From: a virus | Strand: one strand, 5' to 3' | DNA length: 63,190 nt | Virus record (IMG/VR): IMGVR_UViG_3300042691_045055 | Location: 1-63,190 of that record | Part shown: positions 6,225 to 62,867 of the stretch, in pieces | Numbering within the stretch: position 1 is the stretch's first letter | How the letters are laid out: each line of letters starts with the position of its first letter | The notes under the pieces: model-generated | Database searches by the model: none | What the model was told of the DNA's origin: nothing | Seen by the model: the letters and a program-made list of their open reading frames with translations, nothing else | Translations under genes and position numbers: made by a program

Positions 6225-6236
6225 ATATAGAAATTT

Positions 6237-6626: not shown

Positions 6627-6627
6627 A

Positions 6628-45870: not shown

Positions 45871-45887
45871 TACTTGAAAGGATAATT

Positions 45888-46433
45888 ATGCAAACGATAA
45901 CTCTCAACGAATGGGAGCCATGGGAGCACATGAAGTTTGATGGTAGTGGAACTCATTCGGACTATGACGCTATCGAAATAGGTGCATTGGACGGAGAAAC
46001 TACTAAAGTTTTAGCTAGAAATTTCAAGAGAGTTTTTGTAATTGACCCTTGGGACGGAAGACAACAAGGTGTAGTTCAAAAATATGACATATGGAAAAAT
46101 AATACTAAAGAATTTAAAAACGTATTTCATGTTAGAACGGGTTCAGAAACTCAAGAAGCTAGAAACTTTTTAGCTAGTATAAAAGATTGGAATTTAGGAT
46201 TTGTTTACGTTGATGGTTTACATACAGCAGAGGCTGTAGTTAATGATATTAATCTTGTTTTTCCTTATTCAAACAACAAAACAAAAATCATGGTTGATGA
46301 TGTAGAATATCCTCCTGTTCAAATAGGCTGCAATCAAGCATTCATTCAATTAGCCCCAAAAATATTATTTGAAAAAATTATAAAATCTTCTTTGCACCCT
46401 AGGATAAAATGGATTTATGGAGTAAACAATTAA
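45888..46433 (+). CDS. class I SAM-dependent methyltransferase (Methyltransf_24-like)
   Basis: A 181-residue protein. YDAIEIGALDGETTKVLARN gives the Rossmann glycine motif, VFVIDPWDG the acidic end of strand 2, and FVYVDGLHTAEAVVNDINLV and KIMVDDVEYPPVQIG the late motifs typical of small-molecule or sugar methyltransferases. I start at the ATG at 45888 with an SD (AAAGGA), not at the earlier in-frame codon at 45813 inside the GT10 gene. It is one of four methyltransferases in the cassette; probable glycan O-methylation. Confidence 0.75.
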   Translation: MQTITLNEWEPWEHMKFDGSGTHSDYDAIEIGALDGETTKVLARNFKRVFVIDPWDGRQQGVVQKYDIWKNNTKEFKNVFHVRTGSETQEARNFLASIKDWNLGFVYVDGLHTAEAVVNDINLVFPYSNNKTKIMVDDVEYPPVQIGCNQAFIQLAPKILFEKIIKSSLHPRIKWIYGVNN

Positions 46434-46438
46434 AAATT

Positions 46439-47119
46439 ATGAAATATCTTACTTATACTAATAGTGGATGTATAGATTTGTGCAGAAATATGGTAACTTC
46501 TCTTAAACAAGTAGGAGTAGATGCAAAAAATATTTCAATACATTGCTTTGATAAAATTAGTATGAAGTCTTTAGCAGATCTTGATTGTCAGCTTTATACA
46601 TGGAAAGAATTGTCGGATGATTTAACAGATTACCAAGAATGGTCTTTTGATCCATCGTCAAGTTTTTCTAAAATTGTAAGTTGGAAATGGAAAATAATTA
46701 AAAATTTTTATAACAATAATAAGGAATTCATTTTCACAGACACCGATATTGTATACAAAAAGAATGTTGAAAATGATTTAAAAAGTTACGGTAAAAACAT
46801 ATGCATTCAATGCGATACACCTGGTTCTCTTTACTGTACAGGATTTATGTATTTTAAAGAATCACCTGAGGCTACAACCATAATAAATTCATGTGCTAAT
46901 AACCATATGGATGATCAAATAATATTTAACAGAAATGTAAATGAATTAGGTTTGCGTGATAAAATATGTTTATTACCTCAGGACAAATATCCGAATGGAC
47001 ATGTATTCTATAAAACAGAAATCGATAAATCAAACATAGCGATCATACACAACAATCATATGCTCGGTAAAGAAAATAAAATTAATATGTTTAAAAAATA
47101 TGGAAATTGGTTTGTATGA
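46439..47119 (+). CDS. putative GT-A glycosyltransferase
   Basis: A 226-residue protein. FIFTDTDIVYKKN at about residues 98-110 is a D-x-D metal-binding motif in a hydrophobic strand context. SLYCTGFMYFKES and HMDDQIIFNRN resemble the acceptor side of nucleotide-diphospho-sugar transferases. The ATG at 46439 is preferred over the upstream in-frame start at 46409. Family not assigned with confidence. Confidence 0.6.
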   Translation: MKYLTYTNSGCIDLCRNMVTSLKQVGVDAKNISIHCFDKISMKSLADLDCQLYTWKELSDDLTDYQEWSFDPSSSFSKIVSWKWKIIKNFYNNNKEFIFTDTDIVYKKNVENDLKSYGKNICIQCDTPGSLYCTGFMYFKESPEATTIINSCANNHMDDQIIFNRNVNELGLRDKICLLPQDKYPNGHVFYKTEIDKSNIAIIHNNHMLGKENKINMFKKYGNWFV

Positions 47120-47946
47120 TACCAGATGTTTATCGCCCCTGTCCAAAATATCCAACATATCCTCCATATCATGAGGGTCTGTATTTAGAAGATTATTTCT
47201 ACGAATGGTCTAAAAATAAATCTTTTAATAGAATTTACATTCCTATTTTTTGGACCACCTTGTATTGCGATAACCATCCAATCAATATTCAACATGTTCT
47301 TAATAGATTAGATCCAAATAAAAAGTATTTTACAGTTTGTCAGCACGATGATGCTCCTCGCGAGCGTTTGCCAAAAGATACTTTGGTATTTTCTGCGGGT
47401 GGAAACGTCATAAATGAACAAACAGTAGCGATACCTTTAATCTGCTCCGAGATTAAAAATCCCAATCCCGCACAACAAAAACAGTTTTTTTGTTCTTTTA
47501 TAGGATCCGTAACACATCCAATCAGGGAAAAAATGATATCATGTTTGAAAGGTAAAAACGATTATGTTTTGTCGTATCAAAACTGGACTCCATCGGTTCA
47601 GTCTAAACAATTCGAGCATTTTAAAACTGTAACCGAGAATAGTGTGTTTTGCTTGTGTCCTAGAGGATACGGAAAGAGTAGTTTTAGGTTATACGAAGCA
47701 ATGCAACTAGGTGCGATACCAGTTTACATTAGCAATCATCATTATCTTCCATGGACCGATGAATTGGATTGGAACAGCTTTTCGGTGCTTGTAAAGGAAA
47801 ATGAAATACAAAATATAGATCAAATATTGAAAAGCATTTCACAACAAGAAATAATTAGCAAGCAAAACAAGATAAATGAATTGTATAAAAAGTATTTTAA
47901 TCTAAACGGTATCTGTAATCAAATAATGAAAAGGGTGAATGAATGA
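47116..47946 (+). CDS. exostosin-like (GT47-type) glycosyltransferase
   Basis: A 276-residue protein. FCSFIGSVTHPIREKMISCL and VFCLCPRGYGKSSFRLYEAM, followed by Q-L-G-A-I-P-V-Y-I, are the hallmark C-terminal motifs of exostosin/GT47 proteins. I start at the ATG at 47116, an ATGA overlap with the previous gene, rather than the TTG at 47107. Confidence 0.72.
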   Translation: MIPDVYRPCPKYPTYPPYHEGLYLEDYFYEWSKNKSFNRIYIPIFWTTLYCDNHPINIQHVLNRLDPNKKYFTVCQHDDAPRERLPKDTLVFSAGGNVINEQTVAIPLICSEIKNPNPAQQKQFFCSFIGSVTHPIREKMISCLKGKNDYVLSYQNWTPSVQSKQFEHFKTVTENSVFCLCPRGYGKSSFRLYEAMQLGAIPVYISNHHYLPWTDELDWNSFSVLVKENEIQNIDQILKSISQQEIISKQNKINELYKKYFNLNGICNQIMKRVNE

Positions 47947-48683
47947 AAAAATTTTTATTGGTTGTGGCAAATTATAAAGATCAACGCCAAGAAATATTTG
48001 AAAAATACTATTCTCCTAGAAACAAGGAATTTTGCCAAAAACATGGTTATGAATATATTGTATCTAAAGGAATTGAAATATTTCGTTCAAATCCAACATG
48101 GTGGAAGTTTACTGTTCCTTTAGATTTAATAGATAGAGGTATAGTCAATCAAGGTGACGTAATACTTCATCTTGATGCAGATATGATTATAAAAAATACT
48201 GATTTAGAATATCCTCATCAAAAGAATTTTACTTATTGTATTGACAATGGAAATTCACATTGCATGGGAAATTATTCTATTCGTGTAACAGAGTGGACAA
48301 GAAATATGTTTAAAAATATCTTGGACGAAAAACTTTGGAATGACTGTAAAGACACGGAATTATGGCAACTGTGGCGTGAACAAGCAGCTTGGTACACGTT
48401 AGCTGGAGTTCCTAGACACAGTTGGATTGATTATAGAATTATGCCACACAAAGGTTGGCATCAAACTCAGGATGAATTTTTTAAAAATAAAGTAAAATAT
48501 TCTTTACATGAACTGTATAATAATGTAGAAGTTCTCGGTCCAGAGTGGAACTCTACGATACTATCAGAAGATAAAGATACTATTCCAGATGGAATTTTTC
48601 AATACAATATAGCAAGAAGTAAAAGAGATAACTGCATTATAAGACATTTTGCTGCTGGTCAAGCATGGAGATTGGATTATTGA
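47943..48683 (+). CDS. GT34-like glycosyltransferase
   Basis: A 246-residue protein. The start KFLLVVANYKDQRQE, the segment FCQKHGYEYIVSKG and VILHLDADMIIKN (D-x-D near residues 76-80) fit galactosyltransferase GMA12/MNN10-type (GT34-like) proteins. WREQAAWYTLAGVP and a late R-H-F-A-A-G-Q-A-W agree with that fold. It overlaps both neighbours. Confidence 0.65.
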   Translation: MKKFLLVVANYKDQRQEIFEKYYSPRNKEFCQKHGYEYIVSKGIEIFRSNPTWWKFTVPLDLIDRGIVNQGDVILHLDADMIIKNTDLEYPHQKNFTYCIDNGNSHCMGNYSIRVTEWTRNMFKNILDEKLWNDCKDTELWQLWREQAAWYTLAGVPRHSWIDYRIMPHKGWHQTQDEFFKNKVKYSLHELYNNVEVLGPEWNSTILSEDKDTIPDGIFQYNIARSKRDNCIIRHFAAGQAWRLDY

Positions 48684-49378
48684 TGATACATTATATTATA
48701 TTATCTTGTAAAAAATTAGAGCATTTTAGAAAAATTCAAAAAATAACATGGCTTAAATATATTAACAAAGACGATACCTTTTGTTTTTTATCAGGCAAAG
48801 AACATAAAACAGAAGAAGAGAACGTTTATTGGACAGATACTACAGATGATTACCTTTCTTGTCCTAATAAATATATCGACTATATTAGAAACGGATTGAA
48901 TCAACTCGATAAAAAATGGTATTTTTTTTGTGACGATGATAGTTTTGTTTTTCCAAATAGGTTAAATGAATTACTAAAAAAATATGATTTTAACAAATCA
49001 CATATAGTAATGAATCCTAATCCATATGAAAAACCAGACGATCCTAAAAATACAAGATATTCTAATTTTGTAGAAACTGGTGAAACTTTTTATCCAAATA
49101 TATCTCCTTTAGGTGGAGGAGGTTTTGCTATAAGCAGATTCGCTATGATTAATATGATTAATTATCTAAAAAATACTATCAATCCAGCTATTTGTGTAAA
49201 TAGTGACAGAGCTATTGCTCACTGGTTATCTGCTTCAGGTTTAAAGCAAAATGATATGATATTTAACTATTTTTTATACAATGATGCACCAAATGACTTA
49301 CAAATAAAAGATTCAAGGTTTATTAGCTTTCATCGTGTTTCTTTAGATAAAATGGTTTCTTATTGCAATTTAATATAA
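48683..49378 (+). CDS. GT31/Fringe-like glycosyltransferase
   Basis: A 231-residue protein. ITWLKYINKDDTFCFLSG, then WYFFCDDDSFVFPNRLNELL (D-D-D near residues 80-84) and PLGGGGFAISRFAMINMI, form the order seen in Fringe/galactosyltransferase-like enzymes: D-D-D for metal, then G-G-A-G-type segment. The ATG at 48683 overlaps the previous stop (TGATG). Confidence 0.65.
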   Translation: MIHYIILSCKKLEHFRKIQKITWLKYINKDDTFCFLSGKEHKTEEENVYWTDTTDDYLSCPNKYIDYIRNGLNQLDKKWYFFCDDDSFVFPNRLNELLKKYDFNKSHIVMNPNPYEKPDDPKNTRYSNFVETGETFYPNISPLGGGGFAISRFAMINMINYLKNTINPAICVNSDRAIAHWLSASGLKQNDMIFNYFLYNDAPNDLQIKDSRFISFHRVSLDKMVSYCNLI

Positions 49379-49391
49379 AATTGAGAATAAA

Positions 49392-50264
49392 ATGAAAAAA
49401 ATAAAAATAGCATACTCTGATTTTTGGTACCCATTCGATCCTAAAAATACATTTTATAATGAATTGTTAAAATTTTTAGGTTATGAAGTGGAAATTGTGG
49501 ACTTAAAACAATCTCCTAATATTTTATTTTATTCTTGCTATACACATGACCATAGAATGGTAGACAGAAGCAGAACCAAAAAAATATTTGTTACTGGAGA
49601 AAATGTTCGTCCAAATTTTAATGAATGTGATTATTCTATTTCTTTCGACTTTCCCGATTATGGTGGTAAAAATATCCGTTTACCTCTATGGCTATTTCAA
49701 ATTGATTGGTTTAATAAAGAAAATTATACCAATCCAGAATATGTTATCCCACAAGACAAATTGTATGAAAACGATTGGATGAAAAAACAAAAAACAAAGT
49801 TTTGTTGTATAGTTTTTAATACATATTCTCATTATCGAGCAGAGATGATTGAAAAATTAAGTAGATACAAAAAGGTTGATTGTTATGGTAAACCTTTTGG
49901 TAACTGGTTTTATGGAGAAAAAAATAAAATAAACGTTCTTTCAGATTATAAATTTAATATTTGTTTTGAAAATAGTTTGTATCCAGGTTATTACACAGAA
50001 AAACCCATACACTCAAAAACAGCAGGATGTATTCCGATTTATTGGGCAGATAAATATTGTTACAACGATTTCAATCAAGGATCTTTTTTGAATTTAAATG
50101 ATTGTAATAATAGTGTAGATTTATTGATACAGAAAATCATAGAAATGGATAGCAATCAAACTCGGTATGAAAATATGAAAAATACAAGTTTGTATAAAAA
50201 CAAGCCATCTATAGACTATGTTATTAACAGGATGAAACAAATATTATGCGAAATGCAATTGTAA
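49392..50264 (+). CDS. GT10-like glycosyltransferase, second copy
   Basis: A 290-residue protein. The C-terminal block at about residues 187-215 ([20 protein letters not shown], then [10 protein letters not shown]) is the same GT10 signature as in the gene at 45043, and the two share the order of flanking motifs. They are diverged paralogues or separately acquired. The donor is probably a GDP- or related sugar, unproven. Confidence 0.75.
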
Positions 50265-51304
50265 CTGGATCAGCTGGTTTAGTTGGAAGCCAAGCAGTAA
50301 AATTTTTATCCGAAAAAGGATTTAAAGTTATTGGTATTGATAATGGAATGCGCAAATATTTTTTTGGTGAAAATGCTTCCACAGACAATACTAAAAAATA
50401 TTTAATTTCAAATATTGAAAACTACGTTCATCATAGCGTGGATATTAGAGATGCCGCTGAAATCGATAAGATATTCGAAACCCATGCGTCAGAGTGTGAT
50501 ATAATTGTACATACAGCGGCGCAACCATCTCATGATTGGGCAGCAAGAGAGCCATTTACAGACTTTTCTGTGAATGCCATAGGCACCTTAAATTTATTAG
50601 AATCTACTAGAAAGTATTGTCCTAGTGCTACTTTTATTTTTACATCAACCAATAAGGTGTATGGAGATCGTCCTAATTTTTTGCCAATTGTTGAAATGAA
50701 AACTCGATACGAGTGTTTAGTAGATAATAATCCTTATTCTATTGATGAAAATTTTTCAATAGATCAAAGCAAGCATTCGCTTTTTGGAGCTTCTAAAGTA
50801 GCGGCTGATATTTTATGTCAAGAATATGGTAGATATTTTGGATTGAAAACTGGAATATTTCGTGGCGGTTGTTTAACTGGACCAGACCATGCTGGAGCTG
50901 AATTGCATGGTTTTTTATCTTATTTGGTAAAATGTGTGGTTCATGATAAACCTTACACAATATTTGGATATAAAGGTAAACAAGTTCGTGACAATATTCA
51001 TAGTCAAGATATTTTAAATATGTTCTGGGAATTTCATCTTAATCCTAAATGTGGAGAAGTTTATAATATTGGTGGTGGTCGTGACAATTCATGTTCAATA
51101 TTGGAGGCAATAGATAAGATTAACATTTATGCAAATAAAAAATGGAATTTATATTCAATAAACGAACAAAACAGAATAGGCGATCACATTTGGTATATTA
51201 CAGATTTAACAAAATTTAAAAAACACTATCCAAATTGGAATATTAATATCTCTTTAGATAACATAATACAAGAGATGGTTAATAAGGAGTTGAAAGTTGG
51301 TTGA
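50246..51304 (+). CDS. NAD-dependent sugar epimerase, CDP-paratose 2-epimerase-like
   Basis: A 352-residue extended [19 protein letters not shown] has the G-x-x-G-x-x-G dinucleotide site; [16 protein letters not shown] and [20 protein letters not shown] are typical of the CDP-paratose 2-epimerase (tyvelose-type) group. The catalytic Y-x-x-x-K position reads F180-G-A-S-K184, that is, Phe instead of Tyr; this may be a trait of the subfamily. It overlaps the preceding GT10 gene by 19 bases. Exact substrate unknown. Confidence 0.75.
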
Positions 51305-51968
51305 AACTAAAACATATATTATTCACTGTAAAAAACTTATTGATCGTAAAAAACATATGTTAGAACAGATGCTTTCAAATGAATTTACAAACTATGAATT
51401 TTATGAAGAGTACGATGCAGATGAATTGAATGAAAATTTTATAAAAGATATTTACAATACAGACGTAAATATGCAAAAATATAAAATGAAGCTATGGTCT
51501 TCTGGTGGAACTGCTAGAATTCTTAGAAGAGAAGAAGTTTCATTGACTTATAAATTTTATAAAGTTTTTGAAAAGATTGCATTTGGACAAGACGAATCTG
51601 CTATCATTTTTGAGGATGATGTGATTTTATCTTCTGATTTTGAGTCTTCTTTCAAGATGTATTGCACGGAACTTCCAAGCGATTATGATGCTGTATTTTT
51701 TGGTAGTGGTGCTAATTTACACATACAAACTGAAGATCAAAAACATTGTTACAAGAAAAGTCACCCGGCTACTAGATGTGCTGATTCTTTTATGATAACA
51801 AAAAAAGCGTGTCAGCAATTGGTAAAAACTTATTTACCTTTTTCTTTGTGTTCCGACTGGGAAATAGCTTGGCAAATGGCGAGACACAATCAAAATATAT
51901 ATTGGTTTGAACCATCTCTAGTTAAACAAGGATCTGAAACAGGTCTTTTTCAATCAACACTTAGATAA
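51297..51968 (+). CDS. GT25-like glycosyltransferase, second copy
   Basis: A 223-residue protein. [20 protein letters not shown] at the start and [13 protein letters not shown] at about residues 103-115 follow the GT25 pattern also seen at 44424. [20 protein letters not shown] near the C-terminus also fits. It starts with TTG at 51297, supported by AAGGAG seven bases upstream within the previous gene. Confidence 0.7.
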
Positions 51969-51976
51969 AATATATT

Positions 51977-53065
51977 ATGAAAAAGAAAATAGCTTTTTTG
52001 AAATTTGCTGGTCTAGCTTCAGGTGGAATTGAAAAATATCTTCAAACTATGGCTGTAGTTTTGAAGAAAAATGGACATGATGTTGATTATTATTATACAA
52101 ACGCCGCACCGTTCATAAACAGCGATTTCGTTCATCCGCCAAACGACGAGAATCGTCGTCAATATCTTTTAAACAATAACATATCGACTTACGAAATTAA
52201 GGTTGGTTATAAAAACGGTGGAACAATTCCGTATACATGGCACGATACGAATATATGGGATGTATTTGATCCTTCTAAATATGATTTTATTCAAACTGGT
52301 CGAGCAGGATATCCTGAATATCCGTTTACTGAAATAAAAAACACAAAAATCGTAGATAGTATCCATGGACCTTGGGTACACAAACAAGAAAATATAGTTC
52401 ATTCTATATTGTTGTGTAAATGGCAACTAGATCAATGGGTATCGAATGGAGGAGATGTTTCAAAAACAACTATCATACCATCTTTAGTTTATGTTCCACC
52501 AATAAAATCAAGTAATTTGAGACAAAAATACAATCTGAAAGATAAATTTATTTACGGAATACATCAAAGAAACGATCCTGGTATTTTTTCACCTGCTAAT
52601 TTACAGGCTTATAAAAATATTTCTAATGACAATAATTGTTTTGTAATACTAGGAGGTTCTAACAAACATAGAGAATATGTAGCTGCTAATAAAATTCCAA
52701 ATGTTTATTTTGAAGATTTTAGTTCAGATGTTAATCAGATACATGATTTTTTAGAAGGTATAGATGTTTATGCTCACGCTCGTAATGGTGGTGAAGTGTG
52801 CTCTGCCTCAATAGTAGAAGCTATGTATCATGGAAAACCAGTTATAAGCATACCTGGAAAGGATATGGGACATTTAGAACAAATTGACGGTTGTGGAAAA
52901 ATGTGTTACAATTTACAAGAATATATGTCTGAAATGGTTATATTGGAAAAAAGCAGACAGTATTACGTTTTAAAATCGTCACAAACAAAACAAAAATACA
53001 AAGAAAAGTATGATTTTAATAAGATAGAAAAAGATATAGTTGATTTATATGAAACTTTAACATAA
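51977..53065 (+). CDS. GT4-family (GT-B) glycosyltransferase
   Basis: A 362-residue protein. AFLKFAGLASGGIEKYLQTM is the Gly-rich N-terminal loop of GT4 enzymes. The C-terminal domain contains DVYAHARNGGEVCSASIVEA, then MYHGKPVISIPG, at about residues 259-295, with the E-x7-E catalytic motif (E-V-C-S-A-S-I-V-E). Retaining transferase, donor not predicted. Confidence 0.82.
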   Translation: MKKKIAFLKFAGLASGGIEKYLQTMAVVLKKNGHDVDYYYTNAAPFINSDFVHPPNDENRRQYLLNNNISTYEIKVGYKNGGTIPYTWHDTNIWDVFDPSKYDFIQTGRAGYPEYPFTEIKNTKIVDSIHGPWVHKQENIVHSILLCKWQLDQWVSNGGDVSKTTIIPSLVYVPPIKSSNLRQKYNLKDKFIYGIHQRNDPGIFSPANLQAYKNISNDNNCFVILGGSNKHREYVAANKIPNVYFEDFSSDVNQIHDFLEGIDVYAHARNGGEVCSASIVEAMYHGKPVISIPGKDMGHLEQIDGCGKMCYNLQEYMSEMVILEKSRQYYVLKSSQTKQKYKEKYDFNKIEKDIVDLYETLT

Positions 53066-53074
53066 AGGATTTTT

Positions 53075-53614
53075 ATGCCAGTAGACAATGATGGTGTTGA
53101 TTTTAAAAAATGGAAACAAAATTGCACAGTACTTATTGAAACAGGCACGGCATTCGGAGATGGTATATCTTCAGCTCTTTGTGCGGGAATTGAAAAGATT
53201 TATTCTATTGAATTACAACCAGATCTTCATCGAAATGCAGTTGATAAATTTAAAGACAACAAAAATGTAGAAATCATTTACGGAAATTCTATGGATGTGC
53301 TTCCGTCTTTGATAGAAAAAACAAAAAATGAATCTGTTTTGTTTTGGTTAGATGCTCATTGGTCAGGAAGCGAGTTTGCTGGTGAGATGATGAATGTTTT
53401 TCTTCCTAAAGAATTGGATTCTATAGAAAAGCATATTTCTGTAAGAAACAACAGAAATATAGTTATTATGATAGATGATATGAATTTTTACGAACACGAC
53501 ACCGCATTCAAAAATACAATTGAAGAAAAACTTAAAAAAATAATTCCAGAATGTAATTTGTCTTACTATAAATCTTCAGGTAATAATCATATTATATTAG
53601 TAGCTTATAAATGA
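53075..53614 (+). CDS. class I methyltransferase-like protein
   Basis: A 179-residue protein. TVLIETGTAFGDGISSALCA, IYSIELQPDLHRNAVDKF and VEIIYGNSMDVLPSLIE make a Rossmann core of SAM-dependent methyltransferases (G-x-G-like loop, acidic end of strand 2, then a G-N-S/D motif). VLFWLDAHWSG and IVIMIDDMNFYE follow the pattern seen in the 45888 gene. SD AAAGGA. The ATGA overlap with the next gene suggests coupling. Confidence 0.7.
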   Translation: MPVDNDGVDFKKWKQNCTVLIETGTAFGDGISSALCAGIEKIYSIELQPDLHRNAVDKFKDNKNVEIIYGNSMDVLPSLIEKTKNESVLFWLDAHWSGSEFAGEMMNVFLPKELDSIEKHISVRNNRNIVIMIDDMNFYEHDTAFKNTIEEKLKKIIPECNLSYYKSSGNNHIILVAYK

Positions 53615-54321
53615 AATACTGTTTTGATTTAGATGAAACCATATGCGCTACTCCAGCTTCTCGTAAATATGCAGAGGCGGTTCCATACATTAAAGTTGTA
53701 TCTGCAATAAATGATTTATATGATCAAGGTAATGAGATAACAATATTCACAGCTCGTGGAGGCAGTTCTGGTATAGATTACACAGAACTGACTCACAATC
53801 AACTGCAATCTTGGGGATTAAAGTATCATAAATTAATACTTAAAAAACCAAGTTACGACTATTTTATAGACGACAAAGCCATAAATAGTGTTGATTGGCG
53901 AAATAAAAACAACATTAAAATAGTGGGTTTTGTTGCTAGTTGTTTTGATTTGTTGCATGCAGGACATTGTTTATATTTGAAAGAAGCAAAATCATATTGT
54001 GATCATCTTGTAGCAGGTCTTCATGTTGATCCTAGCAATGAAAGAGCGAACAAAAATAAACCTATACAAAGTTTGGAAGAAAGAAAAATACAGTTAGAGT
54101 CTACAAAATATGTTGATGAAATTTTGATTTATAATACAGAACAAGAATTGGAAAATTTAATAAAACAAGTAAAACCAGACGTTCGTTTTTTAGGTAGCGA
54201 TTGCCAAGATAAAAAAATTACAGGATATGAGTATTGTAAAAATATAATTTATCACAATAGAGCAAATCATATATGGTCTTCGAGTGAATTAAGAACAAGG
54301 ATAAAAAATGACATTAGATGA
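53611..54321 (+). CDS. fused HAD phosphatase-like and HxGH cytidylyltransferase-like enzyme
   Basis: A 236-residue two-domain protein. Residues 1-100 are HAD-like: D6-x-D8-E-T10, T-A-R-G near 47-50 and a distal FIDDKA near 85-90. Residues about 103-236 are a nucleotidyltransferase: F-V-A-S-C-F-D-L-L-H-A-G-H with the HxGH motif at 116-119, a TKYVDEIL segment, and an ending WSSSELR resembling the I-S-T-T-x-I/R-x motif. The second domain resembles TagD and the HldE C-terminal domain. Beside GmhA-like and HddA-like genes, the fusion could remove the C7 phosphate and then activate heptose-1-phosphate; that pathway role is inferred. Confidence 0.75.
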   Translation: MKYCFDLDETICATPASRKYAEAVPYIKVVSAINDLYDQGNEITIFTARGGSSGIDYTELTHNQLQSWGLKYHKLILKKPSYDYFIDDKAINSVDWRNKNNIKIVGFVASCFDLLHAGHCLYLKEAKSYCDHLVAGLHVDPSNERANKNKPIQSLEERKIQLESTKYVDEILIYNTEQELENLIKQVKPDVRFLGSDCQDKKITGYEYCKNIIYHNRANHIWSSSELRTRIKNDIR

Positions 54322-55000
54322 AAAAATTGATGAAATAATGATGATGGTTGATAACGCTCCAGAAAAAACTTCTGAATACGACTTCCATAGAACTTATTTT
54401 TCAAAAGTATTACCTAAAGTTCAAATAGATGGAATGTGGACGGAATTTGGTGTTTATCGCGGAAGATCTATAAAAACAATATCAACTTACGCTAGTAAAA
54501 AAAATGCAATTGTTTATGGTTTTGATAGCTTTGAAGGGTTACCAGAATTTTGGGACAAGGACAACCCTAAAGGTTGTTATGGATTGGCTGGAAAAATTCC
54601 AGATGGTATTATTGATGATAGATTTCCAGATGCCGATACAGGTATGTTTAATAGTGGACCAACAAGAAGAATGCTTCCGTGGCCAAGCAACGTTAAACTT
54701 GTAAAAGGTTTATTTGAAGATACCTTAGATGGATTTTTAAATGAACATAAAGATACAGTTGCGTATGTTCACATCGATTCTGATATTTATAGTGCCGCAA
54801 AAACAGTATTGACTAAATTGAAAGATAGAATAGTAGTAGGTACAGTATTAGATTTTGATGAAATTTGCGATTATCCTGATTACAGAAATCATGAAATTAA
54901 AGCTTTTGCTGAGTATTTGCTTGACACAAATAGAAAAGTATCACCAATATGCAGTCAGAGGTTGGGTTATAGTCAATGTAGTTTTATTGTAACAGAATAA
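54308..55000 (+). CDS. TylF/MycF-like O-methyltransferase
   Basis: A 230-residue protein. MWTEFGVYRGRSIKTISTYA and VYGFDSFEGLPEFW are the TylF-family start, and VAYVHIDSDIYSAAKTVLTK with a following GTVLDFDEICDYPDYRNHEI holds the metal-binding acidic residues of sugar O-methyltransferases such as MycF. It overlaps the previous gene and precedes the GmhA-like gene. Probable methylation of a sugar hydroxyl. Confidence 0.82.
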   Translation: MTLDEKIDEIMMMVDNAPEKTSEYDFHRTYFSKVLPKVQIDGMWTEFGVYRGRSIKTISTYASKKNAIVYGFDSFEGLPEFWDKDNPKGCYGLAGKIPDGIIDDRFPDADTGMFNSGPTRRMLPWPSNVKLVKGLFEDTLDGFLNEHKDTVAYVHIDSDIYSAAKTVLTKLKDRIVVGTVLDFDEICDYPDYRNHEIKAFAEYLLDTNRKVSPICSQRLGYSQCSFIVTE

Positions 55001-55029
55001 ACAATGAACTATAATGAATTGAGAATTTT

Positions 55030-55602
55030 ATGAAAAAACAATTTGTAATTAATTATTTGAACGAAGTAAAAATGATATGCGATTCTATTTCAATTGAAAA
55101 TATACTTGAATTTTCAATACAAATAGAAAATATTAAAAATAAAAACGGAAGAATATTTTTTCTAGGAGTCGGAGGAAGCGCTGGAAATGCTTCACATGCT
55201 GTAAACGACTTTAGAAAAATATTAGGAATTGAATCTTATGCTGTAACCGATAATGTTTCAGAATTAACAGCTAGAATCAATGATGAAGGTTGGGATGTTT
55301 CTTATGTGAATTTTTTGAAAGCTTCTCGACTTTCAAAAAATGATGCTATTATGATATTTTCTGTAGGTGGTGGTTCTTCAACCACTTCAATTAATTTAGT
55401 GAAGGCTATGGAATATGCCAAAGAAACAGGAACAACTGTTCTATCAATCGTAAGTAGAGATGGTGGAGCAGCTAAGTCTATGTCGGATGTATGCGTGCTC
55501 GTTCCTGTGATAGATCAAAGTAGAATAACTCCACACGCCGAAGAATGGCAAGCAATATTGTGGCACCTTTTGGTTTCAATGATAAAGGAATCTAAATCAT
55601 GA
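55030..55602 (+). CDS. gmhA: SIS-domain phosphoheptose isomerase (GmhA-like)
   Basis: A 190-residue protein (E. coli GmhA is 192). FLGVGGSAGNASHAVNDF at about residues 45-61 and IFSVGGGSSTTSINLVKAME are the two SIS phosphate-binding loops, and RITPHAEEWQAILWHLLVSM is the C-terminal active-site helix seen in GmhA-type isomerases (Glu/His pair). GmhA turns sedoheptulose-7-phosphate into glycero-manno-heptose-7-phosphate, the first committed step of heptose synthesis. The nearby transaldolase, which can form sedoheptulose-7-phosphate, and an HddA-like kinase support this role. Confidence 0.82.
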   Translation: MKKQFVINYLNEVKMICDSISIENILEFSIQIENIKNKNGRIFFLGVGGSAGNASHAVNDFRKILGIESYAVTDNVSELTARINDEGWDVSYVNFLKASRLSKNDAIMIFSVGGGSSTTSINLVKAMEYAKETGTTVLSIVSRDGGAAKSMSDVCVLVPVIDQSRITPHAEEWQAILWHLLVSMIKESKS

Positions 55603-56336
55603 TTAAAAATTTAAAAGTTGGCACGATGCGAGATTCATTAGCCCAAAGAGACAATGAAATATACGATTATTTAAAACAATTAGAATCTAAAAAGGGCAGA
55701 AAATTGTCAATATTGGATGTTGGTGGTGGTTGTAGCATTAGACTTCCAAACACCACCCACGTTTTAGATTTTTTACCTCTTAGAGACGCAGCAAAAGATC
55801 AGAATGTTTCTTTGTTTTTAGGAAACATAGATTTGACTGACGGTTGGACAGAAGTTTTTGAGTATGTTAAACAAAATGGAAAATTCGATTTTGTTGTTTG
55901 TAGCCACACACTTGAAGACATAAATTCATCCGAACAAGTTATATTAAATCTGTTCAAAGTTGCCGATGCAGGCATGATTGCTCTTCCCACCAAATACATT
56001 GAAACCATACACTGGGAGACTTATTATCTTCAACAGCCATATATGGGATACGGACATCATAAATGGATTTATACCGTAAAAAACAATACTCTTTACGCAT
56101 ATCCTAAAATGGGACACATGGAGTATGTAAAATTTAATTTTTCAGGTTTACAAGAATATTTAAAAAGATATTCTAATCAGCAGACTGAAATGACCTTTTT
56201 GTGGGAAAACGATTTTTCATTTAAATTTGTACAACCATTTCAATATTTGAATCATTTTGAGCTGACAGAAACAAAACAGTCTGCGTACTTAGATTTGATG
56301 GAAAAGGATGATGTTTGTAAACTTTTTGTGGGGTAA
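55599..56336 (+). CDS. SAM-dependent methyltransferase-like protein
   Basis: A 245-residue protein. KLSILDVGGGCSIRLPNTTH, then VLDFLPLRDA, gives the Rossmann glycine loop and the strand-2 acidic residue; FDFVVCSHTLEDINSSEQVI is the motif before strand 5 typical of methyltransferase fold proteins. The C-terminal half is family-specific. It overlaps the GmhA-like gene by ATGA. Substrate unknown; a sugar intermediate of the cassette is likely. Confidence 0.65.
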   Translation: MIKNLKVGTMRDSLAQRDNEIYDYLKQLESKKGRKLSILDVGGGCSIRLPNTTHVLDFLPLRDAAKDQNVSLFLGNIDLTDGWTEVFEYVKQNGKFDFVVCSHTLEDINSSEQVILNLFKVADAGMIALPTKYIETIHWETYYLQQPYMGYGHHKWIYTVKNNTLYAYPKMGHMEYVKFNFSGLQEYLKRYSNQQTEMTFLWENDFSFKFVQPFQYLNHFELTETKQSAYLDLMEKDDVCKLFVG

Positions 56337-56341
56337 TAAAT

Positions 56342-57049
56342 ATGAAAATTAAAATTTATGCTGATGGATCTGATTACGATCAGATTGTAAATATTTACAA
56401 CAACAGATTCACAAACAACATACATGGCTTTACAACGAATCCAACCTTGATGTGTAAAGCCGGAGTTTCCGACTACTTGGAATTCGCTAAAAAAGTTTTA
56501 ATGGTAGTAAAAGAATCTCCAATATCTTTTGAAGTTTTTGCCGATGATTTTAATGAAATGCATAGACAGGCACTTATACTTTCAAAATTGGCGCCAAACG
56601 TATATGTAAAGATACCAGTAATGAACACTCAAAAACAGACATCTTATAATATTATACGAGAATTGTCTGATTTGGGAGTCAAGTTGAACGTTACAGCAGT
56701 ATTTACAATAGATCAAATTAATGAAATATATAAGTGCTTAAATCCAAAAATAAATTCTATTGTTTCAATTTTCGGAGGAAGAATTGCAGATACTGGTGTA
56801 AATCCAGAAATTAGTATTATTCATGCCGTAAAAAATAGACCTTCTTCTAATATTGAAGTTTTATGGGCATCACCAAGAGAAGTTTACAATATATATCAAG
56901 CCGACTCTATAAACTGTGATATAATTACAGTCACGCCAGATCTTATCAAGAAGTTTATTGAGCTTCAAGGTAAAGATCTAGAGGAATACTCTCTAGAAAC
57001 AGTAAAAATGTTTTACAATGATGCCTGCAGAGCTGGATTTAAATTATGA
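56342..57049 (+). CDS. transaldolase (short TalC/FSA-like)
   Basis: A 235-residue TIM-barrel aldolase. KIYADGSDYDQI, then IHGFTTNPTLMCKAG, is the N-terminal transaldolase signature (F-T-T-N-P-T). The Schiff-base lysine is Lys90 in VYVKIPVMN, and KLNVTAVFTIDQI follows. Short transaldolases are known cyanophage auxiliary metabolic genes; here the position between gmhA-like and hddA-like genes suggests supply of sedoheptulose-7-phosphate to heptose synthesis. The stop overlaps the kinase start. Confidence 0.88.
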   Translation: MKIKIYADGSDYDQIVNIYNNRFTNNIHGFTTNPTLMCKAGVSDYLEFAKKVLMVVKESPISFEVFADDFNEMHRQALILSKLAPNVYVKIPVMNTQKQTSYNIIRELSDLGVKLNVTAVFTIDQINEIYKCLNPKINSIVSIFGGRIADTGVNPEISIIHAVKNRPSSNIEVLWASPREVYNIYQADSINCDIITVTPDLIKKFIELQGKDLEEYSLETVKMFYNDACRAGFKL

Positions 57050-58023
57050 TAATTTCTAGAACTCCTTTTCGAATGACTCTTGGTGGAGGAGGTACAGATT
57101 TACCTTCTTTTTATAAAAAACATGGTGGGTTTGTTGTATCAATGGCCATCGACAAGCACTGTTACATAACCTTCAAACCAAATGTATTTGATAGTTCTTT
57201 GATACTCAGATACTCTGAAAATGAAAAAGTAAAAAATATTTCAGAATTAAAAAATACACGAGCGCGAGAAGTGCTTCTTCGTCATGGAATAACCTCTGCA
57301 GAAATTTGTAGTATTGCAGATTTACCAACAAATACTGGACTAGGTTCATCTGGTAGTTTTTTGGTTGGAATGATAAACACTTTAAGAGAATACAAACGAA
57401 TCAGTCAGCATCCAACCGAAATAGCTGAAGAAGCTTGTGATATTGAAATTAACAAGTTGAACGAACCAGTTGGCAAACAAGATCAATATATTGCCTCTTA
57501 TGGTGGACTAAAAACATTAACTATTGATACATATGGAAATGTTAATGTCAAAAACGTAAATGTTTCTCACACAAACTTCAGTTTGTTTTTATCAAATATT
57601 CAAGTTTATTATTTGAATGTACAGAGAAACGCTTCGGATGTATTAAAAGAACAATCAAAAATGAAATCTAGCACCGAAGATTTACTGCTTAAAATAAAAG
57701 ATTATGGATATCAAACACTTGACATAATTGAAAATCAAAATTTTGATCAATATGGATTATTGATGCATGATTATTGGGAATTAAAGAAAAAATTATCTTC
57801 TAACATCTCAATAAACACAGTGGACATTCTTTACGAAGAACTTCGTAAAAACTATAACGTTCTTGGTGGTAAAATAATCGGAGCTGGCGGTGGTGGATTT
57901 TTTATGGTTTATGTATACAAGAATCATAAAAAATTAGAAGAATACATGAATAGTATTGGATATTCTAAACTTGAATTTTCTGTAGATTATAATGGATCCA
58001 AAATATTGGGAAATTATATATGA
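57046..58023 (+). CDS. hddA: GHMP-family heptose-7-phosphate kinase (HddA-like)
   Basis: A 325-residue protein. ISRTPFRMTLGGGGTDLPSF is the signature N-terminus of HddA-type sugar kinases, LPTNTGLGSSGSFLVG the GHMP ATP loop (P-x-x-x-G-L-G-S-S), and VLGGKIIGAGGGGFFMVY the C-terminal GHMP motif. HddA phosphorylates C1 of D-glycero-alpha-D-manno-heptose-7-phosphate. A related fucose/other sugar kinase is a less likely alternative. It overlaps both the transaldolase and the epimerase by ATGA. Confidence 0.85.
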   Translation: MIISRTPFRMTLGGGGTDLPSFYKKHGGFVVSMAIDKHCYITFKPNVFDSSLILRYSENEKVKNISELKNTRAREVLLRHGITSAEICSIADLPTNTGLGSSGSFLVGMINTLREYKRISQHPTEIAEEACDIEINKLNEPVGKQDQYIASYGGLKTLTIDTYGNVNVKNVNVSHTNFSLFLSNIQVYYLNVQRNASDVLKEQSKMKSSTEDLLLKIKDYGYQTLDIIENQNFDQYGLLMHDYWELKKKLSSNISINTVDILYEELRKNYNVLGGKIIGAGGGGFFMVYVYKNHKKLEEYMNSIGYSKLEFSVDYNGSKILGNYI

Positions 58024-58913
58024 AATGTTTGGTTACTGGTGGTAATGGTTTTATTGGATCGCACGTCGTTGATCGATTGATTAACAACGGTCACGAAGTA
58101 ATTGTTATTGATGATTTATCAGGATTAAACGATAAATTTTATTACAATCAAAAAGCTTTGTATTACAGTGAAAACATATGCAATTACGATTTTCTTCTCA
58201 AAGCATGTAAAAATATAGACTTAATTTTTCACCTAGCAGCCGAATCTAGAATTCAACCAGCAATCGAAAATCCTTTGTTGGCTGTACAAACCAATATGGT
58301 TGGAACTGCTAATGTTCTTCAGGCAGCTAGATTAAATGGAGTTAAGCGAGTTGTATATTCTTCAACATCTTCAGTTTATGGTTTGAATGAAAATTTACCA
58401 ACAGACGAAACTACACCTGTTGATTGTTTGAATCCATATTCTACCACAAAATATGGAGGAGAAGAATTGTGTCGAATGTACAGCAAACTTTACAATTTAG
58501 ATACATGTATTTTTAGATATTTTAATGTTTACGGTGAAAGATCTCCCACAAAAGGACTTTACAGTCCTGTTATTGGTTTGTTTATAAAACAAAATAAAGA
58601 AGAAAATAAATTACACATTATGGGTAATGGGTTGCAAAGACGTGATTTTATACATGTTGCTGATGTGGCTGATATCAATATTAAAGCAGCTTTCCATGAA
58701 TCTAATGTGAACGGAGAAACATTCAATATTGGGTTTGGAGAAAATCATTCGATTCAAGAGATAGCAAAAAACATAAATTCAAACATCGAGTATCATCCAC
58801 CTAGAGTAGGTGAAGCTAAAAATACTTTGGCTGACATTACCAAAGTTAAGAAATTTTTTGATTGGAAACCACAAATTAATTTGTGGACTTGGTTATCGAA
58901 TCAATTAAAATAA
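58020..58913 (+). CDS. NAD-dependent UDP-sugar 4-epimerase-like (GalE-type SDR)
   Basis: A 297-residue extended SDR. KCLVTGGNGFIGSHVVDRLI holds the G-x-x-G-x-x-G site and VIVIDDLSG the NAD-selective acidic residue. The catalytic set is intact: SSTSSVYG and Y140-x-x-x-K144 in NPYSTTKYGGEEL. RYFNVYGERSP and RRDFIHVADVADINIKAA are typical for UDP-glucose/GlcNAc 4-epimerases. It could make UDP-galactose for the mutase gene that follows. Confidence 0.85.
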   Translation: MKCLVTGGNGFIGSHVVDRLINNGHEVIVIDDLSGLNDKFYYNQKALYYSENICNYDFLLKACKNIDLIFHLAAESRIQPAIENPLLAVQTNMVGTANVLQAARLNGVKRVVYSSTSSVYGLNENLPTDETTPVDCLNPYSTTKYGGEELCRMYSKLYNLDTCIFRYFNVYGERSPTKGLYSPVIGLFIKQNKEENKLHIMGNGLQRRDFIHVADVADINIKAAFHESNVNGETFNIGFGENHSIQEIAKNINSNIEYHPPRVGEAKNTLADITKVKKFFDWKPQINLWTWLSNQLK

Positions 58914-58916
58914 TTT

Positions 58917-60008
58917 ATGAATTATGATTATTTAATAGTGGGATCTGGATTGTTCGGATCTGTTTTTGCTCGCGAAATGACAGACAAAGGAGCAAAATGT
59001 TTAGTTATAGACAAAAGAAATTTTGTCGGAGGCAACTGTAGAACAACCGATGTAAATGGAATTCATGTTCACGAATATGGACCTCACATATTTCACACTA
59101 GCAGCAAAAGAATATGGGATTACGTGAATAAGTATGCTAATTTCAATAGATTTGTTTATAGACCAAAGGTTATATACAAAAATAAATTATATTCTTTTCC
59201 CATAAATCTGATGACTCTTTATCAAATTTGGGATGTAAAAACTCCAGAGGAGGCTCAGAAAAAAATAAATTCTGTTAAAAAGAATATAGAAAATCCAAAG
59301 AATTTAGAAGAATGGATTGTTTCTCAAGTTGGAGAGGAATTATATCATATTTTTGTGTATGGTTACACTAAAAAACAATGGAACTGCCATCCAAATCAAT
59401 TGCCAGTTTCAATTATAAAGAGGCTACCAATACGTTTAAACTACGATGACAATTACTTTGAAGATAATTATCAAGGAATACCCGAAGAAGGTTATTCTAA
59501 AATATTTGAAAATTTATTAAAAAATGTAACGGTTTTGACAAACGTAGACTATTTTCAAGATAAAGATTATTGGAATAAAAAAGCTAAAAAAGTAGTGTAT
59601 ACCGGAGCAATAGATGAATTTTTTGATTATGAGTATGGTAATTTAAAGTGGAGAAGTTTGAAATTTGAACACGAACATTTAAATATTTCAGATTATCAAG
59701 GAAATGCTGTAATTAATTACACTGAAGAAAGTGTACCTTATACTCGAATAACCGAACACAAACATTTCACATTTGGCAGACAAAACAACACGGTAATAAC
59801 AAAAGAATATCCACAAGAATGGGATAAAAGCAAAGAAAAATTTTATCCATTGAATGACGAAATAAACAACGAATTATATAAAAAATATAAACAAAAAATA
59901 AATAATGAAAAATTTATTTTTGGTGGAAGATTGGCGGATTACAAATATTATGACATGCATCAAGTCATAGGATCTGCTATAGCGGCTAGTGAAAAGGAAA
60001 GCTTGTAG
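58917..60008 (+). CDS. glf: UDP-galactopyranose mutase
   Basis: A 363-residue flavoenzyme (bacterial UGM about 367-390). YLIVGSGLFGSVFAREMTDK is the FAD-binding G-x-G-x-x-G, FVGGNCRTTDVNGIHVHEYG the conserved substrate-site start, and PHIFHTSSKRIWDYVNKYAN and YGYTKKQWNCHPNQLP are UGM signatures. ITEHKHFTFGRQNNTVITKE near the C-terminus also fits. It converts UDP-Galp to UDP-Galf, a sugar absent from most virion glycans described so far. Confidence 0.93.
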   Translation: MNYDYLIVGSGLFGSVFAREMTDKGAKCLVIDKRNFVGGNCRTTDVNGIHVHEYGPHIFHTSSKRIWDYVNKYANFNRFVYRPKVIYKNKLYSFPINLMTLYQIWDVKTPEEAQKKINSVKKNIENPKNLEEWIVSQVGEELYHIFVYGYTKKQWNCHPNQLPVSIIKRLPIRLNYDDNYFEDNYQGIPEEGYSKIFENLLKNVTVLTNVDYFQDKDYWNKKAKKVVYTGAIDEFFDYEYGNLKWRSLKFEHEHLNISDYQGNAVINYTEESVPYTRITEHKHFTFGRQNNTVITKEYPQEWDKSKEKFYPLNDEINNELYKKYKQKINNEKFIFGGRLADYKYYDMHQVIGSAIAASEKESL

Positions 60009-60009
60009 T

Positions 60010-61047
60010 ATGAAATCTTTAATTTTATCATTAGATCAAAATATGTCTAATATTTTTAATTATTTTCTATGTGATGAAAAAGATACAATACACAATTTTA
60101 TTATCAACGATTCAAACGAACAGACTTTAAAATTATACAATAAAAATTCTTGTTTAGTAAACGAAAATTCTCTTTTATCTGAATATGATTTTGTTTTTAT
60201 GTTTTTAGAACCTCTTCATTTTGTTGACAATCACATGTATACAAAATGGTTGCCAAGCGGAAATACAGTTATAAAATCTTCAGCTAGCACAACAATCGAA
60301 GATTATAGAAACAATTGTAGAAAATACAAAAATATTTTAAGTAAAATAAAATATTCAAAAATTATAATAGTTGACACTAGCGACCGGTCAATATACAAGG
60401 ATGGTGGTTTCGAATTTATTAGATCTAATATATGTTCACAAATAGATTTAATTTTAAAAAGAGAATATAGAAGAACTTACGAATATTCATACAAAAAAGA
60501 AAATGTTAAACCATTTCCATATATGACATTTTCATCCGAACATGTGAAAAAATTTTATATCGATCCTTATCATGAAAAAAATATCCATGGAAGATTAAAC
60601 TGCTCAACTTGGGCAGGTGCTGAACTGTATCGAGTTGAATTAGGTCTTCGAGACGAATGGGTTAATAGATATTACATGCTGCGTGCAATAGAAAAATTAG
60701 ATAATAGCATAGTTAAAGTAAATTTGCCACGCGATCAATACATGGAATGTTTTAAAAAATTCAAAATGTTTATACATTTAAACGGAACTGGACATTTGTG
60801 TCATCGTTTTTTTGAAGGATTATCTACAGACACTTTGATGCTGTGGCAAGAAAATGATGTTATACTACCAAGTTCTTTTCATGAACTTTGTGTTTTTGAA
60901 CATCCAGAAGAATACGCACATAAAGTAAATATCTTAAAAACAAATGTTTACGCTTTCAATGAAGCATATGCACATCAGAGAGAATTGATAAAAAAATATT
61001 TTAATCAAAAATATATAAAAGATTTTATTTTTAATTCTTTAAAGTGA
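60010..61047 (+). CDS. putative glycosyltransferase, last gene of glycan cassette
   Basis: A 345-residue protein; the ATG at 60010 is one base after the glf stop, preferred to an in-frame start at 59989 inside glf. I recognise no clear family. FKMFIHLNGTGHLCHRFFEG, then LSTDTLMLWQ, resembles the acceptor/donor site layout of exostosin-like GT-B enzymes (F-E-x-L). With a cassette position after the mutase, a Galf or other transferase role is a guess. Confidence 0.5.
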   Translation: MKSLILSLDQNMSNIFNYFLCDEKDTIHNFIINDSNEQTLKLYNKNSCLVNENSLLSEYDFVFMFLEPLHFVDNHMYTKWLPSGNTVIKSSASTTIEDYRNNCRKYKNILSKIKYSKIIIVDTSDRSIYKDGGFEFIRSNICSQIDLILKREYRRTYEYSYKKENVKPFPYMTFSSEHVKKFYIDPYHEKNIHGRLNCSTWAGAELYRVELGLRDEWVNRYYMLRAIEKLDNSIVKVNLPRDQYMECFKKFKMFIHLNGTGHLCHRFFEGLSTDTLMLWQENDVILPSSFHELCVFEHPEEYAHKVNILKTNVYAFNEAYAHQRELIKKYFNQKYIKDFIFNSLK

Positions 61048-61104: not shown

Positions 61105-62529
61105 ATGAAAATTGAACATGTAATTTTATTTAATTTAATCAAAAAAGAAGATTATGCAAGAAAGGTTCTTGCTTTTATTTCCTCTGACTATTTTTCAGAA
61201 ACATCCGAACGAAGCACATTTGAAATTGTTCGTTCGTATTTTGAAAAATACAACACATGTCCATCAATCTCTGCATTAAACATAGAAATTGATTCTTTGA
61301 CTGCAAGTCAAGCAGATCATGAAAATATGCGTGACTTGCTGAAAATTGTAGAAAATCTAAAAGACGCAAATGATGTTCAATGGGCAATCGATGCCACTGA
61401 AAAATGGTGTAAAGATCGTGCAGTTTACAATGCTATTTACAATTGCATCAAAATCATAGACGACAAAGAAGGCAAACAAAAGCTCAGTAAAAATGCCATT
61501 CCCGAATTGCTTCGTCAAGCTTTGAGTGTGAGTTTCGACACGAACATTGGACACGATTACACCGAATGTCTCAAAGAACGCTACGAATACTATCACAACG
61601 GCGAAGAAAAGATACCTTTTGATCTTTCAATGTTGAACACCATCACCGATGGTGGTGTGCCACGCAAAACCTTGAATGTAGTAGCAGCTCCCACTGGTGG
61701 TGGCAAAAGTATCTTTTTGTGTCACCATGCAGCCGCTTGCTTGCGTCAAAACAAAAATGTTCTGTATATTACACTCGAAATGAGCGAGCAGCGAATCGCC
61801 GAACGCATCGACGCAAATCTCACCAACACGCGTCTCAACGAGTTGCGTGAGTTGCCGTATCAAATGTATGAAAAGAAGTTTCAACGCGCGACACAAGAAA
61901 TTCACGGCAAGTTGATCATCAAAGAATATCCCACAGGTACAGCTAGTTCTTTGAATTTCCGGCATTTGCTAGACGAACTGCGTCTCAAAAAGAATTTTGT
62001 ACCTGATGTAGTGATTGTTGATTATTTAAACATCTGTGCTTCGGCTAGATACAAAGCAAGTGCCTCGGTAAACAGCTACACGCTTGTGAAAGCAATAGCC
62101 GAGGAATTGCGCGGTCTTGCGGTCGAAATGAATGTGCAACTGTTTACAGCCACGCAAATCAATCGTCAAGGATTCAACAACAGCGATGTGGATCTCACCA
62201 ACACAGCCGAGAGTATGGGATTGCCAGCAACTGCCGATTTCTTTATTGCTTTGATTGGCACCGAAGAACTCGAAGAACTGAATCAGGTGATGATGAAGCA
62301 ACTCAAAAATCGTCTTGGTGATGTTGGCAACAACCGCAAGTTTGTTGTGGGTCTCGACAAAAGCAAAATGAAGTTTTACGATGTAAACGCATCAGCGCAA
62401 CAAACAATTGTTCATGTCAACAGCGAAACTGGCAGAGTTGCACCCAAAGACGATCAAGATCCGTATGATGATTCGATATTCAACAAAAGCGACAAAAAAT
62501 TTCGACAAAAATTCGACGATTGGGAATAA
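61105..62529 (+). CDS. 41: replicative DNA helicase gp41 (DnaB-like)
   Basis: A 474-residue helicase (T4 gp41 is 475). The Walker A APTGGGKS is at residues 195-202; DVVIVDYLNICASARY is Walker B, and LFTATQINRQGFNN the RecA-fold motif 3 region with a downstream ESMGLPATADFFIALI. It is the hexameric replication-fork helicase. In T4 uvsX, 40 and 41 are near neighbours; here the glycan cassette separates uvsX from 41. Confidence 0.95.
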   Translation: MKIEHVILFNLIKKEDYARKVLAFISSDYFSETSERSTFEIVRSYFEKYNTCPSISALNIEIDSLTASQADHENMRDLLKIVENLKDANDVQWAIDATEKWCKDRAVYNAIYNCIKIIDDKEGKQKLSKNAIPELLRQALSVSFDTNIGHDYTECLKERYEYYHNGEEKIPFDLSMLNTITDGGVPRKTLNVVAAPTGGGKSIFLCHHAAACLRQNKNVLYITLEMSEQRIAERIDANLTNTRLNELRELPYQMYEKKFQRATQEIHGKLIIKEYPTGTASSLNFRHLLDELRLKKNFVPDVVIVDYLNICASARYKASASVNSYTLVKAIAEELRGLAVEMNVQLFTATQINRQGFNNSDVDLTNTAESMGLPATADFFIALIGTEELEELNQVMMKQLKNRLGDVGNNRKFVVGLDKSKMKFYDVNASAQQTIVHVNSETGRVAPKDDQDPYDDSIFNKSDKKFRQKFDDWE

Positions 62530-62553: not shown

Positions 62554-62563
62554 AAGTATAGTT

Positions 62564-62634
62564 TGCGGGATAGATTAAAGGCAGATCATCGGTCTCATAA
62601 TCCGATCGTGGTGGTTCGAGTCCACCTCCCGCTA
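62564..62634 (+). tRNA. tRNA-Met (CAT anticodon)
   Basis: Cloverleaf with acceptor arm 62564-62570/62627-62633, D arm 62573-62587, anticodon loop CTCATAA (anticodon CAT at 62596-62598), T arm GGTGG-TTCGAGT-CCACC and discriminator A at 62634. CCA is not encoded. Position 1-72 is a U-U mismatch and 31-39 is T-T. A mismatch at 1-72 is a hallmark of initiator tRNAs, but the anticodon stem lacks the GGG/CCC initiator feature, so elongator Met or a lysidine-modified Ile tRNA are both possible. Confidence 0.88.
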
Positions 62635-62636
62635 TT

Positions 62637-62816
62637 ATGAACAATCAAGATAGTTGTTGGTACTGCAAAAAAGATGATGGTGAGATGAAATTCTGCTGGG
62701 AATTTGATACATTTGTTCATGTTGCTTGCGTACAACAAGCAGCCAAAAACAAAGACGATCGCGAGGCGCAAATTATTGCCGATGAAATTTTGGGTCCTCG
62801 TAGCTCAGTTGGATAG
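62637..62816 (+). CDS. 59-residue zinc-finger-like protein overlapping tRNA-Arg
   Basis: A short ORF. Its first part has the pattern C7-x2-C10-x9-C20-x7-H28-x2-C31, with Trp8, Trp21 and Phe19, so it could bind one zinc ion and resembles small treble-clef/zinc-ribbon phage proteins. The start has no visible SD because tRNA-Met ends 2 bases upstream; internal ATGs are alternatives. The last residues (G-P-R-S-S-V-G) and the TAG stop are encoded by the first 23 bases of tRNA-Arg. Function unknown. Confidence 0.55.
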   Translation: MNNQDSCWYCKKDDGEMKFCWEFDTFVHVACVQQAAKNKDDREAQIIADEILGPRSSVG

Positions 62817-62867
62817 AGCTATGCGCTTCTACCGCATAGGTCGCAGGTTCGAGCCCTGCCGAGGATG
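62794..62867 (+). tRNA. tRNA-Arg (TCT anticodon)
   Basis: Complete cloverleaf: acceptor stem 62794-62800/62860-62866 (one G-U pair at the top), D arm GCTC/GAGC, anticodon stem ATGCG/CGCAT with loop CTTCTAC (TCT), T arm GCAGG-TTCGAGC-CCTGC, and discriminator G. CCA is not encoded. It reads AGA, a codon frequent in the AT-rich genes of this phage. The zinc-finger ORF ends inside it. Confidence 0.95.

Follow-up and report, generated by a model that had tools for sequence, protein, structure and literature searches.

A UDP-galactopyranose mutase gene beside a 4-epimerase-type gene and a heptose-type module in a T4-like phage

The glycan island and its heptose-type module

The window, the whole 63,190-base stretch of DNA analyzed here, is a ∼63 kb fragment from a virus record and represents an incomplete genome. 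Judged by its genes, it belongs to a T4-like myovirus, with T4-like PHROG matches for terminase, tail sheath, baseplate wedge, phage DNA helicase, and gp41-like DnaB helicase. The terminase is nearest to those of Pelagibacter phage Mosig (56.9%), Methylophilales phage Melnitz (56.4%), and cyanophages (∼56%). A run of sugar genes, the glycan island, extends from a uvsX-like gene to the gp41-like helicase and has a GC content of 0.309, compared with 0.391 in bases 1–43390. The features that concern us are as follows.

43394–44434: RecA/UvsX-like gene (uvsX), left flank of the island
44424–61047, + strand: glycan island
53611–54321, + strand: HAD domain (residues ∼1–101) fused to an HldE-C-like nucleotidyltransferase (PF01467, 50.2 bits, cut-off 21)
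from 54308: TylF-like methyltransferase
55030–55602, + strand: SIS-domain isomerase, similar to the phosphoheptose isomerase GmhA (PF13580, 32.7 bits, cut-off 27)
from 55599: methyltransferase-like protein
56342–57049, + strand: transaldolase, Staphylococcus type (PF00923, 120.5 bits)
57046–58023, + strand: GHMP kinase most like HddA, the D-glycero-D-manno-heptose 7-phosphate kinase (PF00288, 34.8 bits, cut-off 22.3)
58020–58913, + strand: SDR NDP-sugar epimerase, UDP-hexose 4-epimerase-like, 297 amino acids (PF01370)
58917–60008, + strand: UDP-galactopyranose mutase (Glf/UGM), 363 amino acids (TIGR00031, PF03275)
59989–61047, + strand: putative glycosyltransferase (PF13524, 19.9 bits, below the cut-off of 25)
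61105–62529: gp41-like helicase, right flank of the island

Directly past the helicase, beside the island, are genes for tRNA-Met (62563–62635, +) and tRNA-Arg (62794–62867, +). The initial annotation placed an epimerase and a UGM next to each other at 58020–60008, and the two reading frames, both on the + strand, are indeed separated by only 3 bases. It also spoke of many glycosyltransferases, in agreement with the several island ORFs that exceed Pfam glycosyltransferase cut-offs (GT10 twice, Nucleotid_trans, Fringe/Galactosyl_T, and GT1). The two GT10 genes are fucosyltransferase-like (45043–45870 and 49392–50264, both +), and no model for GDP-fucose synthesis was passed among the subset of window ORFs scanned. 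Another island gene (50246–51304, +) encodes a CDP-tyvelose-2-epimerase-like SDR, with 1orr as its best PDB chain, whose YxxxK motif has Phe180 in place of the catalytic Tyr; the same replacement occurs in L119 and L200, both of its relatives above 45% identity among the fetched loci. Two viral loci (L249 and L250) have the window's order of Nucleotid_trans, g47107, g47943, and FucT, with a 53% identical UGM downstream.

Not noted in the initial annotation is a heptose-type module (53611–58913) whose final gene is this epimerase. The best NCBIfam models for the isomerase, kinase, and nucleotidyltransferase of this module are heptose enzymes, all under cut-off, and the genes are co-localized both in the window and in relatives. 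The isomerase scores 56.0 bits against TIGR00441 (cut-off 209.45), the kinase 116.4 bits against NF049969 (cut-off 600), and the HAD-nucleotidyltransferase fusion 81.1 bits against TIGR02199 (cut-off 181.5), while the transaldolase falls narrowly short of TIGR02134 (278.2 bits, cut-off 281.95). With the epimerase counted as the fifth member, no protein of the module reaches its curated heptose or transaldolase equivalog cut-off. The fusion matches phrog_1238 and phrog_7878 and carries DLDET and HAGH motifs. The kinase has the motifs PTNTGLGSS and GAGGGG, and its best PDB chain, 4n3o, is a putative D-glycero-D-manno-heptose 7-phosphate kinase. The transaldolase is nearer to a Staphylococcus type than to cyanophage TalC (∼35%), its identity to a protein from an S. 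aureus phage record being 42.8%. It has a VKIP motif with Lys90, which we take to be the Schiff-base lysine, and is a possible source of sedoheptulose 7-phosphate. Acting together, the enzymes of the module would convert pentose-phosphate intermediates to a nucleotide heptose.

The mutase and its viral neighborhood

The UGM passes both TIGR00031 (365.5 bits, cut-off 303.75) and PF03275 (259.7 bits, cut-off 26.3), has 4mo2 and 1i8t as its nearest solved chains, and is 53.3% identical to Glf of the E. coli K-12 O16 antigen cluster across 362 aligned residues. Twelve checked positions of E. coli Glf are unchanged: F12, N39, H56, W156, R170, Y181, N268, R278, Y311, R340, Y346, and Y347. We equate W156, R170, Y181, N268, R278, Y311, and Y346 with the KpUGM residues of a published table, and E. 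coli N80 with the Galp-contacting N84 of KpUGM. This last position is the sole exception among the checked substrate and FAD residues, being Tyr81 in the window, so the claim that the UGM retains every FAD and substrate motif holds at the 12 positions and fails at this one. Since the position varies across 70 other viral UGMs, with Tyr (38), Asn (21), Leu (8), or His (3), we do not regard Tyr81 as a defect. The other five unchanged residues are those named for EcUGM in that table (PMC3624792). Given its family and conserved residues, the enzyme very probably makes UDP-Galf from UDP-Galp.

UGM matches occur in 88 of 50,697 phage records, and published examples include gp6 of Agrobacterium phage Atu_ph04 (listed in PMC6630229) and ORF125 of DSL-LC01 (listed in PMC10611076). 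These belong to the same enzyme family and, like the window's, to dsDNA phages, and the Atu_ph04 protein is 42% identical to ours; the window differs in that its UGM is accompanied by an epimerase and by a module of heptose type. E. coli K-12, in contrast to the window, has a known Galf transferase gene, wbbI, near glf. No Galf transferase was recognized in the island, the best BLAST match of E. coli WbbI being a methyltransferase-like protein (E 0.071). By position, the best candidate for a UDP-Galf user is the putative glycosyltransferase at 59989–61047, which overlaps the UGM by 20 bases. A tblastn search of the phage collection found no relatives of this protein, and single-sequence scans found none for it, the transaldolase, or GT51977. 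Its sole relative in the neighbor clusters sits directly upstream of a UGM, in locus L008.

With the window UGM as query we found 68 viral loci. In 26 of these a member of the epimerase clade lies within 2.5 kb of the UGM, and 17 have one no more than 60 bp away; a heptose-type gene of any kind is present in 7. The commonest UGM neighbor is the SDR-epimerase cluster (32/53 loci with non-identical UGM proteins), followed by a family found in 10/53. When g47107, a different gene of the island, served as the anchor for a control, the epimerase clade was present in none of 7 loci, a small sample because only the g47107 scan yielded loci. The UGM-epimerase pair is thus recurrent among viruses; a limited literature search found no published description of such a pair in a phage. 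The usual viral order is UGM followed by epimerase, and the window has the reverse. In all four loci with the UGMs nearest to the window's (L002–L005), a member of the epimerase family lies 0–834 bp downstream.

Fold, residues, and ancestry of the epimerase

The epimerase scores 204.7 bits against PF01370 (cut-off 20.9) but passes no NCBIfam equivalog. Its best score is for GalE (TIGR01179, 160.8 bits, cut-off 262.3), followed by LegB (158.1, cut-off 475), an RmlB-type dehydratase (139.4, cut-off 365.1), and the ADP-heptose 6-epimerase HldD (TIGR02197, 124.8, cut-off 274.6). The YxxxK motif reported initially is intact (Y140-STT-K144) and is accompanied by T116/S117, and N169, R208, R262, and E265 align with N179, R231, R292, and D295 of E. 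coli GalE, such that the catalytic Ser/Thr, the YxxxK pair, and the nucleotide-binding Asn, Arg, and Asp/Glu of GalE all have counterparts (T116, Y140, K144, N169, R208, R262, and E265). In HldD, the sites of R262 and E265 are occupied by Leu and Arg, respectively. We also considered Lys178 of HldD, presumably an active-site residue of the heptose 6-epimerase, as a marker. The window has Lys at this site, and its relatives have K, R, S, T, V, or other residues; this variability led us to drop it.

A structure predicted from a 30-row alignment (pLDDT 95.6, pTM 0.93) has as its nearest folds the T. maritima UDP-glucose 4-epimerase TM0509 (4zrn; Z 41.1, rmsd 1.5, 292 residues aligned) and Rv3634c (7ys9; Z 41.0, rmsd 1.6, 292 aligned), which are also the first and second PDB sequence matches. 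Identity in these structural alignments is 34% and 31%, respectively, and the window's clade differs in its invariant Glu75/Arg77. UDP-GlcNAc and UDP-GlcA 4-epimerases come next, ∼2 Z units or less from the best match. HldD is not among the 50 fold matches listed by VIA-align, which we do not count against a likeness to HldD. The predicted fold by itself is no proof of substrate. Considered with the catalytic and nucleotide-binding residues, it indicates that the protein is most likely an NAD-dependent enzyme of the UDP-hexose 4-epimerase type.

Which hexose it would accept is less readily told from the pocket. The bulky C5-pocket residue of E. coli GalE, Y299, is replaced by the small Thr269, and the sequence thus gives no sign that UDP-Glc/Gal would be preferred to the N-acetyl sugars. 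Pro183 lies in the region aligned with the C2 pocket. In a scheme outlined in PMC6668579 and PMC12820599, small residues at these sites mark the N-acetyl-tolerant group 3 enzymes, and under it the window epimerase would not be limited to UDP-Glc/Gal. Together with the fold ranking, this lends some credit to a UDP-GlcNAc/GalNAc or UDP-uronic acid 4-epimerase serving neither the UGM nor the heptose module. We consider this improbable: Glu75 and Arg77 are invariant across the family, making the pocket different from the WbpP type, and such an enzyme would leave both the UGM and the heptose neighbors without an account.

Scans with the single epimerase sequence returned no relatives in viral or genome contigs, because few exact peptide patterns are held in common, and an alignment query was needed to find them. 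In the 80 viral loci so obtained, an HAD-nucleotidyltransferase-like gene was present anywhere in the stretch in 20, a GHMP kinase-like gene in 11, and a UGM in 6. The relatives in 80 listed genome contigs are mostly 33–45% identical, and similarity searches with the window's heptose genes found none in these contigs except a full module in L168 and single SIS or GHMP matches in L177 and L218. L168, a contig titled Prochlorococcus single cell AG-363-P19, has a run of GHMP kinase, SIS, nucleotidyltransferase, and epimerase genes at 4749–7894; the epimerase is 52% identical to the window's, and a bacterial sugar transferase is close by.

Two trees were built: a quick tree of 122 rows, leaving out the over-long ORF L028 and second contig copies L108 and L163, and a careful tree of 75 rows without E. 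coli GalE, HldD, L014, and L015, in which identical proteins appear once and unlinked "other" rows are thinned to a seeded random 30 plus L084 and L089 (the label "UGM" counts the window itself). In both, the window epimerase groups with L087, L071, L072, L138, L084, and L033, a clade of seven with support 99/93 in the careful tree that becomes a clade of eight on adding L070 (97/92). In each of the seven relatives the epimerase is flanked by genes of the GHMP, SIS, or nucleotidyltransferase type, and L033 also has a UGM. The UGM-linked epimerases form a separate clade (21 of its 26 rows UGM-linked, support 99/92), and forcing the window's protein into it was rejected (p-AU 5.1e-5), a value that is optimistic because the group was chosen after the quick tree. 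The window's end branch is long (0.66); its nearest relative is that of L087 (58–59% identity). There is one virus-wide epimerase family, UGM-linked in one lineage and heptose-module-linked in others. Considered with the partners of the four nearest UGMs, the tree points to a window UGM from a partnered lineage and an epimerase from another; the latter may have replaced the UGM's original partner, or the adjacency may be due to chance.

Substrate of the epimerase and the likely pathway

The ancestry and gene arrangement of the epimerase lend support to a rival reading in which it is the final enzyme of an NDP-heptose pathway, after transaldolase, SIS isomerase, GHMP kinase, and HAD-nucleotidyltransferase, and acts on NDP-heptose only, with the UGM functioning independently on host UDP-Gal. 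The last 4 bases of the window's kinase gene are shared with the start of the epimerase gene, and in L087 the kinase, an SIS-nucleotidyltransferase fusion, and the epimerase are successively overlapping ORFs. In cyanophage SynMITS9220M01, the same four kinds of gene (GHMP kinase, SIS isomerase, HAD-nucleotidyltransferase, and epimerase) are consecutive, and its authors describe them as heptose LPS genes (PMC7378029). That epimerase, 51.7% identical to the window's, is annotated there as an ADP-heptose 6-epimerase; the stretch shown lists no UGM, and among the window's module genes there are, in addition, a transaldolase and methyltransferases. Sugar genes including rfaE appear in an account of pelagimyophages (PMC7029224), and large LPS clusters in one of cyanophages (PMC3037559). 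UGM and heptose genes have thus both been published from phages before, and the window adds a member to each kind.

We nevertheless give this heptose-only role just tentative weight, somewhat short of an even chance. The epimerase lacks the HldD residues at R262 and E265, and the site of HldD Lys178 is variable in the clade; the HldD cut-off was missed, as were the curated heptose or transaldolase cut-offs of all five module proteins; and UGM-linked loci mostly contain this epimerase family without detectable heptose genes. In addition, the checked pocket positions are mostly identical between the UGM-linked and heptose-linked lineages, which argues for a single substrate class.

The initial annotation regarded the pair as a route from UDP-glucose to UDP-Galf, and took it to imply a phage or host glycan that would contain Galf. 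The UGM half of this proposal stands, on the TIGR00031 score and the conserved residues. As the galactose-making partner, the epimerase is a plausible candidate: its family is the most frequent viral neighbor of UGM, and both its predicted fold and the residues that bind the nucleotide match the UDP-hexose 4-epimerase type. The missed GalE cut-off, the heptose-linked tree and synteny, the reversed gene order, and the small Thr269 and Pro183 suggest otherwise.

Our preferred reading, to which we assign a probability of about 0.5, combines a working-looking UGM with an epimerase of the 4-epimerase type, acquired together with the heptose module, that feeds UDP-Gal to the UGM. In this model the epimerase would have arrived in the genome as the final gene of a heptose-nucleotide-type module. 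Its activities would probably also include the interconversion of UDP-Glc and UDP-Gal, supplying the adjoining UGM, which would convert UDP-Galp to UDP-Galf. The products would serve as donors for the island glycosyltransferases, and these may in turn alter glycans of the host surface or of the virion in the course of infection. A more far-reaching reading is unlikely in our view: the phage would make NDP-heptose from pentose-phosphate intermediates with its own transaldolase, isomerase, kinase, and phosphatase-nucleotidyltransferase and a GalE-fold NDP-heptose epimerase of new specificity, and UDP-Galf from the same operon, such that infection installs a glycan containing both heptose and Galf.

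If these enzymes work, a marine-type T4-like phage could alter host-surface or virion sugars without host genes for two unusual donors. More generally, the epimerase family has UGM for a neighbor in one lineage and heptose-type modules in others, yet its checked pocket positions are largely unchanged between them.
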